Below, in pieces: positions 3,014-18,482 of a stretch of DNA of 21,115 bases. The notes beneath the pieces were generated by a model. It searched no databases, was not told the DNA's origin, and was given only the letters and a program-made list of their open reading frames with translations. Origin of the DNA: a virus. Positions within the stretch are counted from its first letter, which is position 1; the number at the start of each line of letters is the position of its first letter. The stretch is taken from positions 1 to 21,115 of the IMG/VR virus record IMGVR_UViG_3300025781_000091. One strand, given 5' to 3'. Both the position numbers and the translations under genes were made by a program.

Positions 3014-4945
3014 TTACTGATTAATATCTACTATTTCACATTCCCCCGAAACACAAGCAAGTGCTTGGGTTCCAGTGGTTGAATCCTCTAGTTCGTACAT
3101 TGATAAAGCTGCCCAATCAATGGTTTTTGGCATTGTGGCAACTAAAGATTCATAACCAGCCTTATCAACTTCTTGATAAGGTGCTTGAACATATGAGTGC
3201 TCTGAATATGGGAGGAATGAGATTCCTGATACTTCATCAAAATGCTTATAAACCCAAGCTCCGACTTCCATCCACTCTTCTTCTCTTACCGAAACAGTAA
3301 TTGATGGCTTATGCTCACACCAATGACGTTGGTATACCAGCCAAATTTCAAGCTGTTGCAAAGCGGTCAACTTATCTCTGGTTATAGCATGCGATGGTGC
3401 TTTTACTGGAAAAGAAAACACATAAGTATCGTTTGGTTTCATAACATCATCTTCAGTTGGAATTCCAGAATCTTTTAAGAACTTTGAAATAGGATCATTT
3501 TTAGATCCACGAACAGTTCTAATGTAATAATCTGAATGCCATGGATGCATTCCTGAAGACACCCCGACCAATTGGGACACTGTACCCGAAGGCTTAACGC
3601 AAGTTACTGCTGCTGAGGCGGGAATCCCAATTTTCATTGCCTCTTCAATATTAACATCTACTGCCATTTGACGAAGATTATCTAAAACTGTAGAAAGTTT
3701 ATCTAGCCCTTCTTGTCCTGAAAAAAACTTATGTCCAAATTGTCCAGTTAATGAAACTCCTAAAAGTCTTTCTTCTTCGGTGTTATCTTTCCAAATTTTA
3801 CGGATATATTTAAAATCTGTAAGTGTTGATTGCCATGTTCCTAAAATGGATGCCAGACGGACTTTATTTGCAACATCTTCCACTGTATCTTTTTCACGAA
3901 GTACGACTTCTGAAAGATTACAAAACTGATAAGGACGTAAAATAATTTCTGAGCAAGGGTTTGTTCCATAGTGGATTTCAGGATCTCTACGACCATATTT
4001 GGCTGCTTGTTTTTGGGCTGCTGCCACATTATAGATACCTCTTTCACCTGATTTTGAATCATAAAGCGATTTCCATTCTGCAATAAATTGAGCCATTTCT
4101 GGTTTTCTAGAATAAGCTACTGAATTATTTGATAAAGAACGTTGTGCATTCTTTTCCCACCAATTACCAGATTTTGCTGCTGCCATTTCAATATCATTTA
4201 TGTTTGAAAGAGAAATCATTGCAGAGCGACGTACTCCACCAACAACAACCACTTCACCAATCTTACACATCAAGTCGTGGCATTCAATAGGCTTTAATTG
4301 ACGACCAAGTGCTCCCTTAAATATTTGAATTGTAAAGTCAAAAAGATTTACTAGTGGTTGTGGACCTGATGATCTTCCACCCATTGTTTTAAGTCTTGCA
4401 CCTGAAGGGCGAACTTTGCTGATATCAATTTGTGGAATTTGTCCTGCCCACAAAAGAGATAAAAATTCACGATAAGCTTTAGCCCATCCTTCTTTTGAAT
4501 CCCCAACAATAACTGTTGTTGATGATTTTTCTAAAGTTTCTGGAAGGGCGGGAAGTTTATTGATGTACTTATATTCAACGGAAAATCCTACTCCAGTACC
4601 GCACATAAGAATGTACATGGCTTCATCAAATGAACGAGCATTATCTACAGGAAGAAATGCACAGTTATATCCAGAAACGTTTTCTCTTTCTAATGCGGCA
4701 CCTGCAGTCATAACAGATCTCATGGATGGCATAACATTTCTATTGAATACTGCATCACGAAGTTCTGCAACAATTTTTTGATCTGGAGTATATCCGTGTT
4801 TTTCACGCAATTGAGTAACCATAAAGTTAAAGTAACGGTCTACAGTTTCACCCCAAGTTTCACGACGGTTTTCATCTTCTAACCATCTTGCATAGCGAGA
4901 TAATGCAATAAAGTTTTCATAGGGATTTTCAATTGTATTTGACAC
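3014..4945 (-). CDS. nrdJ: Adenosylcobalamin-dependent (class II) ribonucleotide reductase
   Basis: It reduces ribonucleotides to deoxyribonucleotides using coenzyme B12, supplying dNTPs for phage replication. The 643-residue protein has the class II cysteine set: SGYNCAF (C95), NPCSEI (C331 and E333) and FCNLSEV (C342). The 11-residue spacing of the last two matches C408/C419 of the monomeric Lactobacillus leichmannii enzyme. A C-terminal C631-x4-C636 pair fits the thiol shuttle that re-reduces the active site. PSGTVSQLVGVSSGMHPWHS and the RTVRGSKNDP block are also typical. I chose the GTG at 4945 because AGAGGAG lies just before it; an ATG at 4984 is in frame but has no ribosome site. It needs host or salvaged B12. 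It follows the glycosyltransferase by 48 nt and is probably co-transcribed with it. Confidence 0.93.
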   Translation of the reverse strand: MSNTIENPYENFIALSRYARWLEDENRRETWGETVDRYFNFMVTQLREKHGYTPDQKIVAELRDAVFNRNVMPSMRSVMTAGAALERENVSGYNCAFLPVDNARSFDEAMYILMCGTGVGFSVEYKYINKLPALPETLEKSSTTVIVGDSKEGWAKAYREFLSLLWAGQIPQIDISKVRPSGARLKTMGGRSSGPQPLVNLFDFTIQIFKGALGRQLKPIECHDLMCKIGEVVVVGGVRRSAMISLSNINDIEMAAAKSGNWWEKNAQRSLSNNSVAYSRKPEMAQFIAEWKSLYDSKSGERGIYNVAAAQKQAAKYGRRDPEIHYGTNPCSEIILRPYQFCNLSEVVLREKDTVEDVANKVRLASILGTWQSTLTDFKYIRKIWKDNTEEERLLGVSLTGQFGHKFFSGQEGLDKLSTVLDNLRQMAVDVNIEEAMKIGIPASAAVTCVKPSGTVSQLVGVSSGMHPWHSDYYIRTVRGSKNDPISKFLKDSGIPTEDDVMKPNDTYVFSFPVKAPSHAITRDKLTALQQLEIWLVYQRHWCEHKPSITVSVREEEWMEVGAWVYKHFDEVSGISFLPYSEHSYVQAPYQEVDKAGYESLVATMPKTIDWAALSMYELEDSTTGTQALACVSGECEIVDINQ

Positions 4946-4993
4946 GGAGACTCCTCTTAAAATATTAGAACTTAAGTGTACCACAAGGTATTC

Positions 4994-10612: not shown

Positions 10613-10745
10613 AAGACTAATTATATCGTTACTAGTAGTAGCCCTACTTTCAGTAATGTCGGTGGCTAATGCTAAAGTAATTAAGCCTCATACAATTAAG
10701 GGCTATACTACACACTTTAATTTTTATACACACAAGAAACACTAA
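10605..10745 (+). CDS. 46-residue secreted peptide with signal sequence
   Basis: The frame from ATG 10605 encodes MIKRLIISLLVVALLSVMSVANA, a classic signal peptide with a basic start, hydrophobic core and an ANA cleavage site. A 23-residue polar, His/Lys-rich remainder (KVIKPHTIKGYTTHFNFYTHKKH) follows. The mature peptide would lie outside the membrane. The codons for MSVANAKV coincide with a GTCGGTG-type promoter. No homologue is recognised. Confidence 0.5.
   Translation: MIKRLIISLLVVALLSVMSVANAKVIKPHTIKGYTTHFNFYTHKKH
10658..10678 (+). promoter_or_regulatory. Weak GTCGGTG-type promoter
   Basis: GTCGGTG (10658-10664), 8 bp, TGC-TAAAGT (10673-10678). The -10 is poor, so this may be a relic or a coincidence of signal-peptide codons, but spacing and extension match the family. 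Confidence 0.3.
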
Positions 10746-12573: not shown

Positions 12574-12692
12574 TGACTGATTTATTTGATATCTTTATCT
12601 GCGATGAATGCGATACCCTAGCCACCTTGTCGGTGGCAGGTGATACAATACAATTAAATAAATGCAAATGCTTAACAAGAAAGGACAACTAA
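12573..12692 (+). CDS. 39-residue Cys-rich peptide
   Basis: The frame MTDLFDIFICDECDTLATLSVAGDTIQ... has C10-x2-C13 and C31-x-C33, enough for one zinc site. Start and stop overlap both neighbours (TAATG at each end), which supports it as a real gene. Its codons 19-26 contain a full GTCGGTG promoter for the next gene, so the same bases serve two purposes. A similar zinc-plus-promoter arrangement occurs at 16076. No function known. Confidence 0.6.
   Translation: MTDLFDIFICDECDTLATLSVAGDTIQLNKCKCLTRKDN
12629..12649 (+). promoter_or_regulatory. GTCGGTG-type promoter inside a Cys-rich gene
   Basis: GTCGGTG (12629-12635), 8 bp, TGA-TACAAT (12644-12649). The first half lies in an inverted repeat CCACC/GGTGG (12622-12636). 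It drives the gene at 12692. Confidence 0.6.
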
Positions 12693-15850: not shown

Positions 15851-15924
15851 GGTCTGGTAGATCAATTGGTTAGATCGTCGCCCTGTCACGGCGGAGGTTG
15901 CGGGTTCAAGTCCCGTCCAGATCG
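15851..15924 (+). tRNA. tRNA-Asp (GUC anticodon)
   Basis: A 74-nt cloverleaf: the acceptor GGTCTGG pairs with CCAGATC (one G-U), the D-arm has TAGATCAATTGG, the anticodon stem TCGCC/GGCGG encloses CTGTCAC with GTC at 15885-15887, and the T-loop region reads GGTTCAAGTCC. The discriminator base is G73. The 3' CCA is not encoded (CAA follows), so it would be added by the host enzyme. It is the only tRNA seen in the window. Confidence 0.95.
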
Positions 15925-15937
15925 CAAAATAAAATAC

Positions 15938-16029: not shown

Positions 16030-16068
16030 GGCGTGTCGTTTGATTACCCATAATTATTTTGCTACAAT
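16030..16068 (+). promoter_or_regulatory. GGCGTGTCG-type promoter for a leaderless gene
   Basis: GGCGTGTCG (16030-16038), 1 bp, TTGATT (16040-16045), 17 bp, TGC-TACAAT (16063-16068). The CRP-like centre is 52.5 bp before the -10. ATG 16076 lies 7 nt after the hexamer, so transcription should start at or next to the AUG. Confidence 0.7.
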
Positions 16069-16075
16069 ATCTGCT

Positions 16076-16690
16076 ATGATGAATACAAATGAAAAACCAA
16101 CCTGGTATAAATGGGATTATTTATGCACAAATTGCGATTCTAATATCGTAATGATTATCAAGTCTGAGGGATTACCACACGCAGAAATGTGTCCGAAGTG
16201 CTGTGTTCAGATGACCTTGATGTCGGTGGTAGATGCTACAATATATCCAACAAAGAAAGAGGAAACAATGGAACTTACAACTGACTATAATCCAAACCTA
16301 CTCGTTACTTACAAAGTTATTACTGATGGTGAAACAACCTATGAAACTCGCAAGATGAACGAACTAGAGTGGGATATGGAACAATTCCGCAAACTCCGTA
16401 AAGCAGAAAATAATTGGTGGGGCAAAGAAAGCCAACTCCGTAATCTTATTTCTGATGTATATCAAGACTCTCCAGATCAAGAAACATTATTGCAAATTGC
16501 AGATATTTTTGGTATCCCATTAACTAAGACTATTGAATATATTGCAACCATAAATGTATCTGGAACTATGGAAGTAGATTTAACTGATACCTATGACCTG
16601 AGTGATATGTTATTTAGTAATCTAAATGTATCTGGATATGGCGAAGTTGAAGTATTAGATTTTGATGTATATTCAGTAGAGGAGTGTTAA
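16076..16690 (+). CDS. Zinc-ribbon protein with embedded promoter and in-frame internal gene
   Basis: Start 16076 (or 16079) is placed right behind the promoter with no ribosome site. The first 64 codons encode a zinc ribbon, LCTNCDSN and MCPKCCVQM (CxxC...CxxC), then MSVVDATIYPTKKEE. The codons for SVVDATI are also a GTCGGTG promoter (16222-16242), and an in-frame ATG at 16268 follows AGAGGAAAC. From there the product is 140 residues (MELTTDYNPNLLVTYK...), with a helical W-rich middle and a C-terminus with two repeats NVSGxxEV. So one frame probably gives a 204-residue fusion and a 140-residue short form. Function unknown. Confidence 0.7.
   Translation: MMNTNEKPTWYKWDYLCTNCDSNIVMIIKSEGLPHAEMCPKCCVQMTLMSVVDATIYPTKKEETMELTTDYNPNLLVTYKVITDGETTYETRKMNELEWDMEQFRKLRKAENNWWGKESQLRNLISDVYQDSPDQETLLQIADIFGIPLTKTIEYIATINVSGTMEVDLTDTYDLSDMLFSNLNVSGYGEVEVLDFDVYSVEEC
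16222..16242 (+). promoter_or_regulatory. GTCGGTG promoter inside the zinc-ribbon gene
   Basis: GTCGGTG (16222-16228), 8 bp, TGC-TACAAT (16237-16242). No -35 of the usual type. It would express only the 140-residue in-frame product starting at 16268. Confidence 0.65.
16268..16690 (+). CDS. Internal-start 140-residue product
   Basis: The ATG at 16268 has AAAGAGGAAAC 1 nt ahead and its own promoter 26 nt upstream. The product is the C-terminal two thirds of the 16076 frame, with TTDYNPNLLVTYKVITDGETTYETRKMNELEWDMEQFRKLRKAENNWWGKE and later QIADIFGIPLTKTIEYIATINVSGTMEVDL. This could be the principal product, with the zinc ribbon a former separate gene fused by loss of a stop codon. No family recognised. 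Confidence 0.6.
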   Translation: MELTTDYNPNLLVTYKVITDGETTYETRKMNELEWDMEQFRKLRKAENNWWGKESQLRNLISDVYQDSPDQETLLQIADIFGIPLTKTIEYIATINVSGTMEVDLTDTYDLSDMLFSNLNVSGYGEVEVLDFDVYSVEEC

Positions 16691-18227: not shown

Positions 18228-18482
18228 ATGGAAACTTTACGAATATATGAAATAGACTATAGTGTCTCACCAGGTGGAATAAACTCATATGAAATATATA
18301 ATGATTTAGATAATGATTATGAGAGTCCATATCCACTATATGAGACAGAAAGTCTCACAGATGCTTGTAAATGGGCATATAACCAAGGATGTAATTTTAC
18401 TGTATATACTCTAGCACAATATAACTTAGAATTCAATTCCGACACTCCCGCCCAGCCCTTGACGGCTGTCGGTGGGTTCTGA
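18228..18482 (+). CDS. 84-residue acidic protein, predicted leaderless
   Basis: METLRIYEIDYSVSPGGINSYEIYNDLDNDYESPYPLYETESLTDACKWAYNQGCNFTVYTLAQYNLEF... is acidic and Tyr-rich with two Cys. There is no ribosome site before the ATG, which fits a message starting at the AUG itself. The last 8 codons (QPLTAVGGF) overlap the next promoter, and the stop codon TGA is the extension of its -10. Family not recognised. It contains a TCCCGCC motif (18446). Confidence 0.7.
   Translation: METLRIYEIDYSVSPGGINSYEIYNDLDNDYESPYPLYETESLTDACKWAYNQGCNFTVYTLAQYNLEFNSDTPAQPLTAVGGF

Follow-up and report, generated by a model that had tools for sequence, protein, structure and literature searches.

Structure of the nested frame

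The window, that is, the whole stretch of DNA that was analysed, is a 21,115-base IMG/VR virus record. By ORF translation, a single open frame of 204 codons runs on its plus strand from ATG 16076 to a stop codon ending at 16690. A second ATG at 16268, which is preceded by 64 codons, opens the 140-codon 3' part of this frame. The features of the locus are as follows.

16040..16068, plus strand: predicted long-form promoter, TTGATT-17-TACAAT, with the -10 at 16063-16068 and TG before the -10
16076..16690, plus strand: long frame of 204 codons (zinc ribbon, linker and C domain), predicted leaderless start
16076..16267, plus strand: N part of 64 codons, zinc ribbon (CTNC...CPKCC) and linker
16222..16242, plus strand: putative internal promoter, GTCGGTG-N8-TACAAT, with an extended -10 (TGC), which also encodes MSVVDATI
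16258..16263, plus strand: short-form SD, AGAGGA, an in-frame part of KEE, 4 nt before ATG 16268 and kept in relatives
16268..16690, plus strand: short frame of 140 codons, C domain alone, which occurs ribbon-free in other phages

The preliminary description had placed a ribbon segment, a GTCGGTG promoter and a second ATG with its own SD in one frame, and its positions and wording were correct. The 204- and 140-codon frames, which share one stop, are both open in the window. The long-form promoter, which ends 7 nt before ATG 16076, was absent from that description. RNA folding around the internal start gave no structure exceeding that of shuffled sequences.

Predicted zinc ribbon and C domain

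The N part had been called a zinc ribbon, and its cysteine knuckles (CTNC and CPKC) are plain, but the Pfam zinc-ribbon scores stayed below the gathering cut-offs (Zn_ribbon_8, 16.5 vs. 34.4 bits; SprT ribbon, 13.5 vs. 28.1 bits). Three ribbon strands were present in the predicted model, with a pLDDT of 86.8 and a pTM of only 0.45. The best PDB ribbon match was 4af1, with a middling score (Z 5.3, rmsd 2.2 over 46 residues). Among 22 aligned ribbons, just three cysteines were invariant. In the model, with its pTM of only 0.45, the third ribbon strand comprises residues 47-53 (TLMSVVD), and residues 49-53 are encoded by the internal promoter. The first half of the peptide MSVVDATI, encoded by 16222-16242, would thus lie in this strand. 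Because some codons of the last ribbon strand lie in the promoter, the same bases would act as promoter and protein at once.

As to the function of the C domain, the window protein had no match of weight in Pfam and PHROG. Among 59 members of the family, the most frequent matches were DpnI in 3 and phrog_3048 in 4, and no primase or helicase Pfam match was obtained for the window protein or for these members. A sequence search of PDB returned one match (E 0.15), the best PDB match by Foldseek had an E of 0.054, and VIA-align on the C model gave a top Z no higher than 3.9. The best Foldseek matches in BFVD were uncharacterised phage proteins, and the first of them (220 aa, E 2.1e-17) is probably a fused relative.

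The putative GTCRGTG promoter class

GTCGGTG occurs eight times in the window, always on the plus strand, against 0.55 expected, and eight was reached in 0 of 100 shuffles. Five occurrences are exact GTCGGTG-N8-TANAAT sites. Those at 12629, 13512, 16936 and 18468 precede an ATG at gene borders, and the one at 16222 lies inside the 204-codon frame. Looser sites are found at 10658, 10910 and 13311, all on the plus strand. The promoter at 18468 overlaps the final codons of ORF 18228-18482.

GTCRGTG-N8-TANNNT was found 688 times on the plus strand and once on the minus strand in 1.37 Mb of fetched loci, a redundant set that was mostly turned so that the searched gene lies on the plus strand. A stricter motif was present in 27 of 30 whole contigs, mostly on one strand and in one region, and a reversed control pattern gave 1 match. 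In the larger relatives, the class was mostly clustered in one region. The motif looks like a genuine promoter class of these phages. A phage sigma factor that would read it was sought and rejected, with Sigma70_r4 above the cut-off in 0 of 30 contigs (many of which may be fragments) and 8 weak matches.

A promoter-wide control was performed on 327 unique strict promoters, 274 of which had an SD-ATG within reach. A stop codon lay between promoter and ATG in 156 of the 274. The open frame reached at least 120 nt upstream in 51 of the 274, and 44 of these 51 were the nested gene, with 7 sporadic others. A chance open frame was ruled out by this control. At the 223 non-nested promoters of the class, the lengths from -10 to ATG were distributed 91/48/84 over the three remainders.

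The A or G type of the promoter was also tried as a test of coevolution and set aside. All three contigs with a G-type internal site hold only G-type strict sites (5, 4 and 3), yet the test is weak: near copies make up two of the three, and both types occur among the A-type loci (132 A, 32 G).

Conservation of the fused frame in relatives

A whole-protein search returned two relatives, 97% and about 52% identical, both with the fused frame, internal promoter, SD and ATG. From a profile of the C part, the best 80 of 126 relatives were taken, and from a later scan the best 80 of 202. The N and C profiles were run on ORFs from all six frames of 166 loci plus the window, which gave 145 C matches and 139 N matches. 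The latter comprised 89 distinct ones (not identical over 300 nt, with near copies counted apart), of which 64 were fused to a downstream domain.

Among these 64, with the window included, 61 carry the C domain (one of them, L070, with half a ribbon) and three carry another domain (L111, L116 and L162). The domain that follows the ribbon in L111 shares 50-59% identity with stand-alone proteins to which the C profile gave weak matches (E 3e-7 to 1e-4), and it is therefore taken as a remote relative of C. The other 25 N matches were 22 stand-alone ribbon genes, L010 with its own stop, L152, which is cut by the locus end, and L128, where the match is the promoter-coded peptide only.

Since fused loci are in frame by definition, the real test is the existence of out-of-frame neighbours; a lack of neighbours that are out of frame or split off by a stop is the one result that does not depend on the definition. 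The preliminary description had proposed to look for a stop between the parts in related phages. No ribbon was found beside an out-of-frame or stop-separated C domain, and no stand-alone ribbon adjoined a C domain among the loci examined. Separate frames, which it had named as contrary evidence, were seen only as distinct genes within one locus, with starts 2.1-3.1 kb apart and with ribbons that lack the internal promoter; a ribbon paralogue in L010 lies 1.2 kb before the fused copy.

The internal -10-to-ATG lengths were 25, 28, 31, 34, 37, 40 and 43 nt, i.e., steps of three. In the VES class, the -10 (TAGAAT) lies in another phase, with a compensating length of 26 or 29 nt. The lengths were obtained by script in 59 of the 64 fused loci and by eye in L027, L034, L044, L116 and L162, which are outside the SD pattern (28 or 29 nt, in the phase of their class).

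Two later scans, which overlap with the first set, yielded 97 loci, of which 94 were fused and 3 had only the C domain; none had only the ribbon. They contained 27 distinct fused segments that were new relative to the first set, a count that allows for L249 being the contig of L132, and these were 80-96% identical to the first set where the match was long. Their -10-to-ATG lengths leave the same remainder (22 by script; L234, L250, L256, L257 and L264 by eye, 25 or 28 nt). In L234, the -10 match has been lost by decay. A tblastn search with either part over 50,697 isolated-phage records gave no match, and neither part nor the motif was found in the terminal region of Streptomyces phage Bmoc.

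Selection on the ribbon, linker and internal promoter

Substitution rates were compared over 29 disjoint pairs, some of which have differing ribbon types. The dN/dS was 0.30 for the ribbon and 0.255 for the C domain. For the linker (-10 to ATG) it was 0.93, so selection at the protein level was not seen there. Synonymous divergence was 0.089 in the promoter codons vs. 0.338 in the ribbon and 0.358 in the C domain, about 4-fold lower in the promoter. About 170 changes were counted in promoter and linker over the 29 pairs, and 5.25% of the single changes possible in the promoter-to-ATG stretch create a stop. About 9 stops would therefore be expected without selection on the frame. The linker is, by these measures, free in sequence and constrained in frame.

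The strict internal motif was present in 36 of 48 distinct promoter-leader pairs and missing in 12. Five of these 12 (L011, L015, L041, L060 and L129) have lost the GTCRG box and retained TACAAT. Codon choice in the promoter was counted in 54 distinct loci, which were chosen by the peptide. Thr was ACA in 54/54 (58% elsewhere in these ORFs), Val was GTG in 48/53 (12% elsewhere), Ala was GCT in 51/51 (27% elsewhere), and Ile was ATA in 32/54 (7.5% elsewhere).

Start of the long form

The position upstream of the long form is occupied in relatives by a GTCRGTG-N8-TANAAT or a TTGATT-type promoter. The -10 ends 6-8 nt before the long-form ATG in 52 of 59 distinct fused starts (6 nt in 31, 7 nt in 20 and 8 nt in 1), as scored by a script that saw only 0-8 nt before the ATG. 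The other seven starts, without a -10 within this range, were those of L004, L010, L011, L015, L016, L041 and L132. In L004 the -10 lies 9 nt from the ATG, and in the remaining six the long form seems to follow an upstream gene. Of the 24 later-fetched new loci that were scored, 20 had this -10 at a distance of 6 or 7 nt from the long-form ATG.

The distance to the first ATG that opens a long frame, taken over 342 unique strict promoters with no 0-8 nt limit, was two-peaked, at 6-7 nt (50 promoters) and 22-53 nt (282 promoters). The nested gene accounted for 44 of the 51 promoters with an ATG at 3-10 nt. Because the -10 ends only 6-8 nt before the ATG, the long form probably starts leaderless. 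Judged from spacing, the two products would use different start modes, leaderless for the long one and SD-dependent for the short one. Efficient initiation on leaderless mRNAs is described for mycobacteria in the accessible part of PMC4633059.

Another family (..RLQKL[VI]D[LM]GESGTDILH) also starts 6 nt past a GTCRGTG -10 (L114:8665, L119:5723, L122:8277 and L157:9054) and may be leaderless as well.

Loss and exchange of the ribbon

Several loci have lost all or part of the ribbon. The 5' half is missing in L070, where the internal promoter, SD and short frame are retained. L068, L128 and L215 have no ribbon and a single promoter before the C domain, with the SD and short frame retained. An in-frame stop lies between promoter and ATG in L068 and L215, and the frame is open by chance in L128. 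These four loci indicate that the promoter and the short frame outlive the ribbon. In L069, the C domain has neither ribbon nor promoter.

In L215 (L215:1-345), one upstream-type promoter stands directly before a leader and SD resembling those of the short form, and the ribbon is missing. The layout is as a deletion between two promoter copies would give.

The second ribbon of L010 and L012 (L010:2560-2800) has a predicted leaderless start, an internal promoter-like site in its 3' end and its own stop. It is followed, out of frame, by an unrelated gene (MPNWVYN). Ribbon and promoter can thus occur together unfused next to a different gene.

On a tree of 77 C domains, which has few columns and many open forks, the ribbon type changes at least 28 times; the minimum possible is 6 and the shuffled mean is 45.7, with the types being seven labels from patterns that we made. 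L044 and L045 have identical C domains and different ribbons. L057 and L060 are 96% identical in the flank, 61% in the ribbon and 93% in the C domain. Four other swapped pairs are 88-98% identical in the C domain and 65-75% in the ribbon, and their left flank has diverged too (65-73%). The identities in these five pairs come from global alignments, which give high values also between unrelated sequences. Two pairs were aligned in detail, and in both the right-hand identity resumes only past the linker and not at the promoter. With at least 28 changes of type, the ribbon acts like an in-frame cassette that can be swapped.

One gene with two predicted products

The observed basis consists of the frame, motifs, spacing, conservation and selection. 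According to the preliminary description, either a stop codon had been lost or the dual output was selected. An open frame, an internal promoter kept against synonymous change, an SD and an ATG, all maintained across many diverged relatives, favour the selected dual output, and conservation and selection make a lost stop unlikely. It is probable that one gene gives two selected products, a long protein with the zinc ribbon and a short one without it. From this basis we infer promoter activity, a leaderless start and the existence of both proteins. The first promoter would give an mRNA starting at or next to ATG 16076, which would be translated without a leader into the 204-residue protein of ribbon, linker and C domain. 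The internal promoter of the GTCRGTG class would give a shorter mRNA, whose leader of about 19 nt (for a start near 16249) contains the SD and from which ATG 16268 would yield the 140-residue C domain alone. The SD and ATG at 16268 could also serve on the long mRNA. Against this reading stand the 12 of 48 promoter-leader pairs without the strict motif, the decayed -10 of L234, the linker without selection at the protein level, the 7 of 59 long-form starts outside the leaderless spacing, the unfused second ribbon of L010 and L012, and the bare C domain of L069.

It could instead be that only the long fusion matters, with the internal promoter and SD as unused leftovers of the promoter-mediated recombination that brought the ribbon in. 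Selection on both ribbon and C domain in one frame fits this, as does the decay of the internal box in some fused loci, but the promoter's synonymous sites change about 4 times less than their surroundings, the SD and ATG are kept, and derivatives without the whole ribbon retain promoter, SD and short frame. We consider it improbable. It appears very unlikely that the short C protein is the sole product of importance and that the ribbon is a separate small gene that lost its stop and whose run-on is tolerated. The C domain does occur by itself in another lineage, as well as in L068, L069, L128 and L215, and the linker is without protein-level selection; against this, zero stop-split ribbon-C pairs were found where about 9 stops were expected without selection, and the fused ribbon is joined to the C domain in 61 of 64 loci and to a remote relative of C in the other 3.

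A further reading takes the ribbon and its two flanking promoter copies mainly as a recombination cassette, in which exchange between repeated promoters swaps ribbons in phase. The many changes of ribbon type on the C tree, the different ribbons on the identical C domains of L044 and L045, and the dip in identity over the ribbon between L057 and L060 speak for it. On the other side, the right-hand identity resumes after the linker in both aligned pairs, the left flank has also diverged in 4 of 5 swapped pairs, and the VES class, with its -10 in another phase and a compensating length, indicates that register alone does not keep the frame. This reading has somewhat less than an even chance, and it is compatible with dual output. 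Equally tentative is the proposal that the 21-bp element serves as the promoter of the short protein, as code for a portion of the last ribbon strand and as one of two repeated exchange borders. If it holds, an exchangeable N-terminal domain would stay in frame on a gene with a leaderless long start and an SD short start, and the long/short ratio may vary with how the promoters are used and with the condition of the host ribosomes.

Comparison with known systems

Shigella VirF30/VirF21 is described in the accessible part of PMC5101355 as having a promoter inside the gene, two mRNAs of which one is leaderless and the other longer, and a long and an N-truncated protein. The predicted phage gene resembles it, as far as that text goes, in the internal promoter and in a long and an N-truncated product from one gene. 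In VirF, however, the short form comes from the leaderless mRNA, whereas here the long form is predicted to be leaderless and the short one to use an SD; the proteins also differ.

The Tn5 inhibitor Inh is Tnp minus its N-terminal part, in the same frame. For Tn5/IS50, PMC4265352 (as far as accessible) describes a pair of promoters, the transcripts T1 and T2, and dimerisation of the inhibitor with the transposase. Two promoters and a long and a short protein from one gene would be shared with the phage gene. The promoters of Tn5 overlap each other, whereas the putative second promoter of the phage gene is within the coding sequence of the long form and 174 nt further downstream than the first. 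In the model, a long helix of the C domain (residues 94-129) might conceivably pair long with short chains, and by analogy with Tn5 and VirF the ribbon-free form could tune or temper the long form or act as its partner.

T7 gene 4 encodes colinear 63- and 56-kDa proteins through an internal start with a second ribosome site, and its full-length protein has an N-terminal zinc-binding domain (PMC12593628, accessible part). A zinc segment in the long form only and an internal start with its own ribosome site are common to both, by that account. The phage gene would add an internal promoter to the internal start described for T7, and the primase/helicase match is absent. E. coli CsqR-l and CsqR-s are a long and a short regulator, the latter starting at Met25, with predicted internal promoters for the short RNA (PMC10991401, accessible part). 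The phage gene is similar in its long and short forms and in the predicted internal promoter; in CsqR only 24 residues are removed, and an added domain is not described in that part.

As far as seen in these sources, none of the four brings together an internal promoter, a zinc domain, a long form that starts leaderless and an N-terminal domain that is exchanged. A phage gene of this arrangement was not found among the open-licence papers that the searches listed. The in-frame nested genes compared here are single cases, whereas the phage arrangement recurs in many diverged genomes, so that sequence comparison by itself is enough to measure selection for dual output. It would also be a clean example of a promoter embedded in a protein domain and shaped together with it, of one frame that carries both a leaderless and an SD start, and of domains that are swapped without loss of the frame. 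Two ideas become testable: that a phage sets a long/short ratio through two modes of translation start, and that coding domains are exchanged at borders formed by repeated promoters.

Host and surroundings

A ribonucleotide reductase gene lies on the minus strand at 3014-4984, and its best matches, 64-65% identical, are in Streptomyces phages of 120-134 kb (e.g., Coruscant and Daubenski). One relative of the C domain lies on a contig of an Actinomycetota MAG. Both points suggest that the host is probably an actinobacterium.

A tRNA-Asp (gtc) gene is located at 15851-15925, upstream of the nested gene. By eye, a tRNA-like sequence is present at the same place in L003, L128 and L215.
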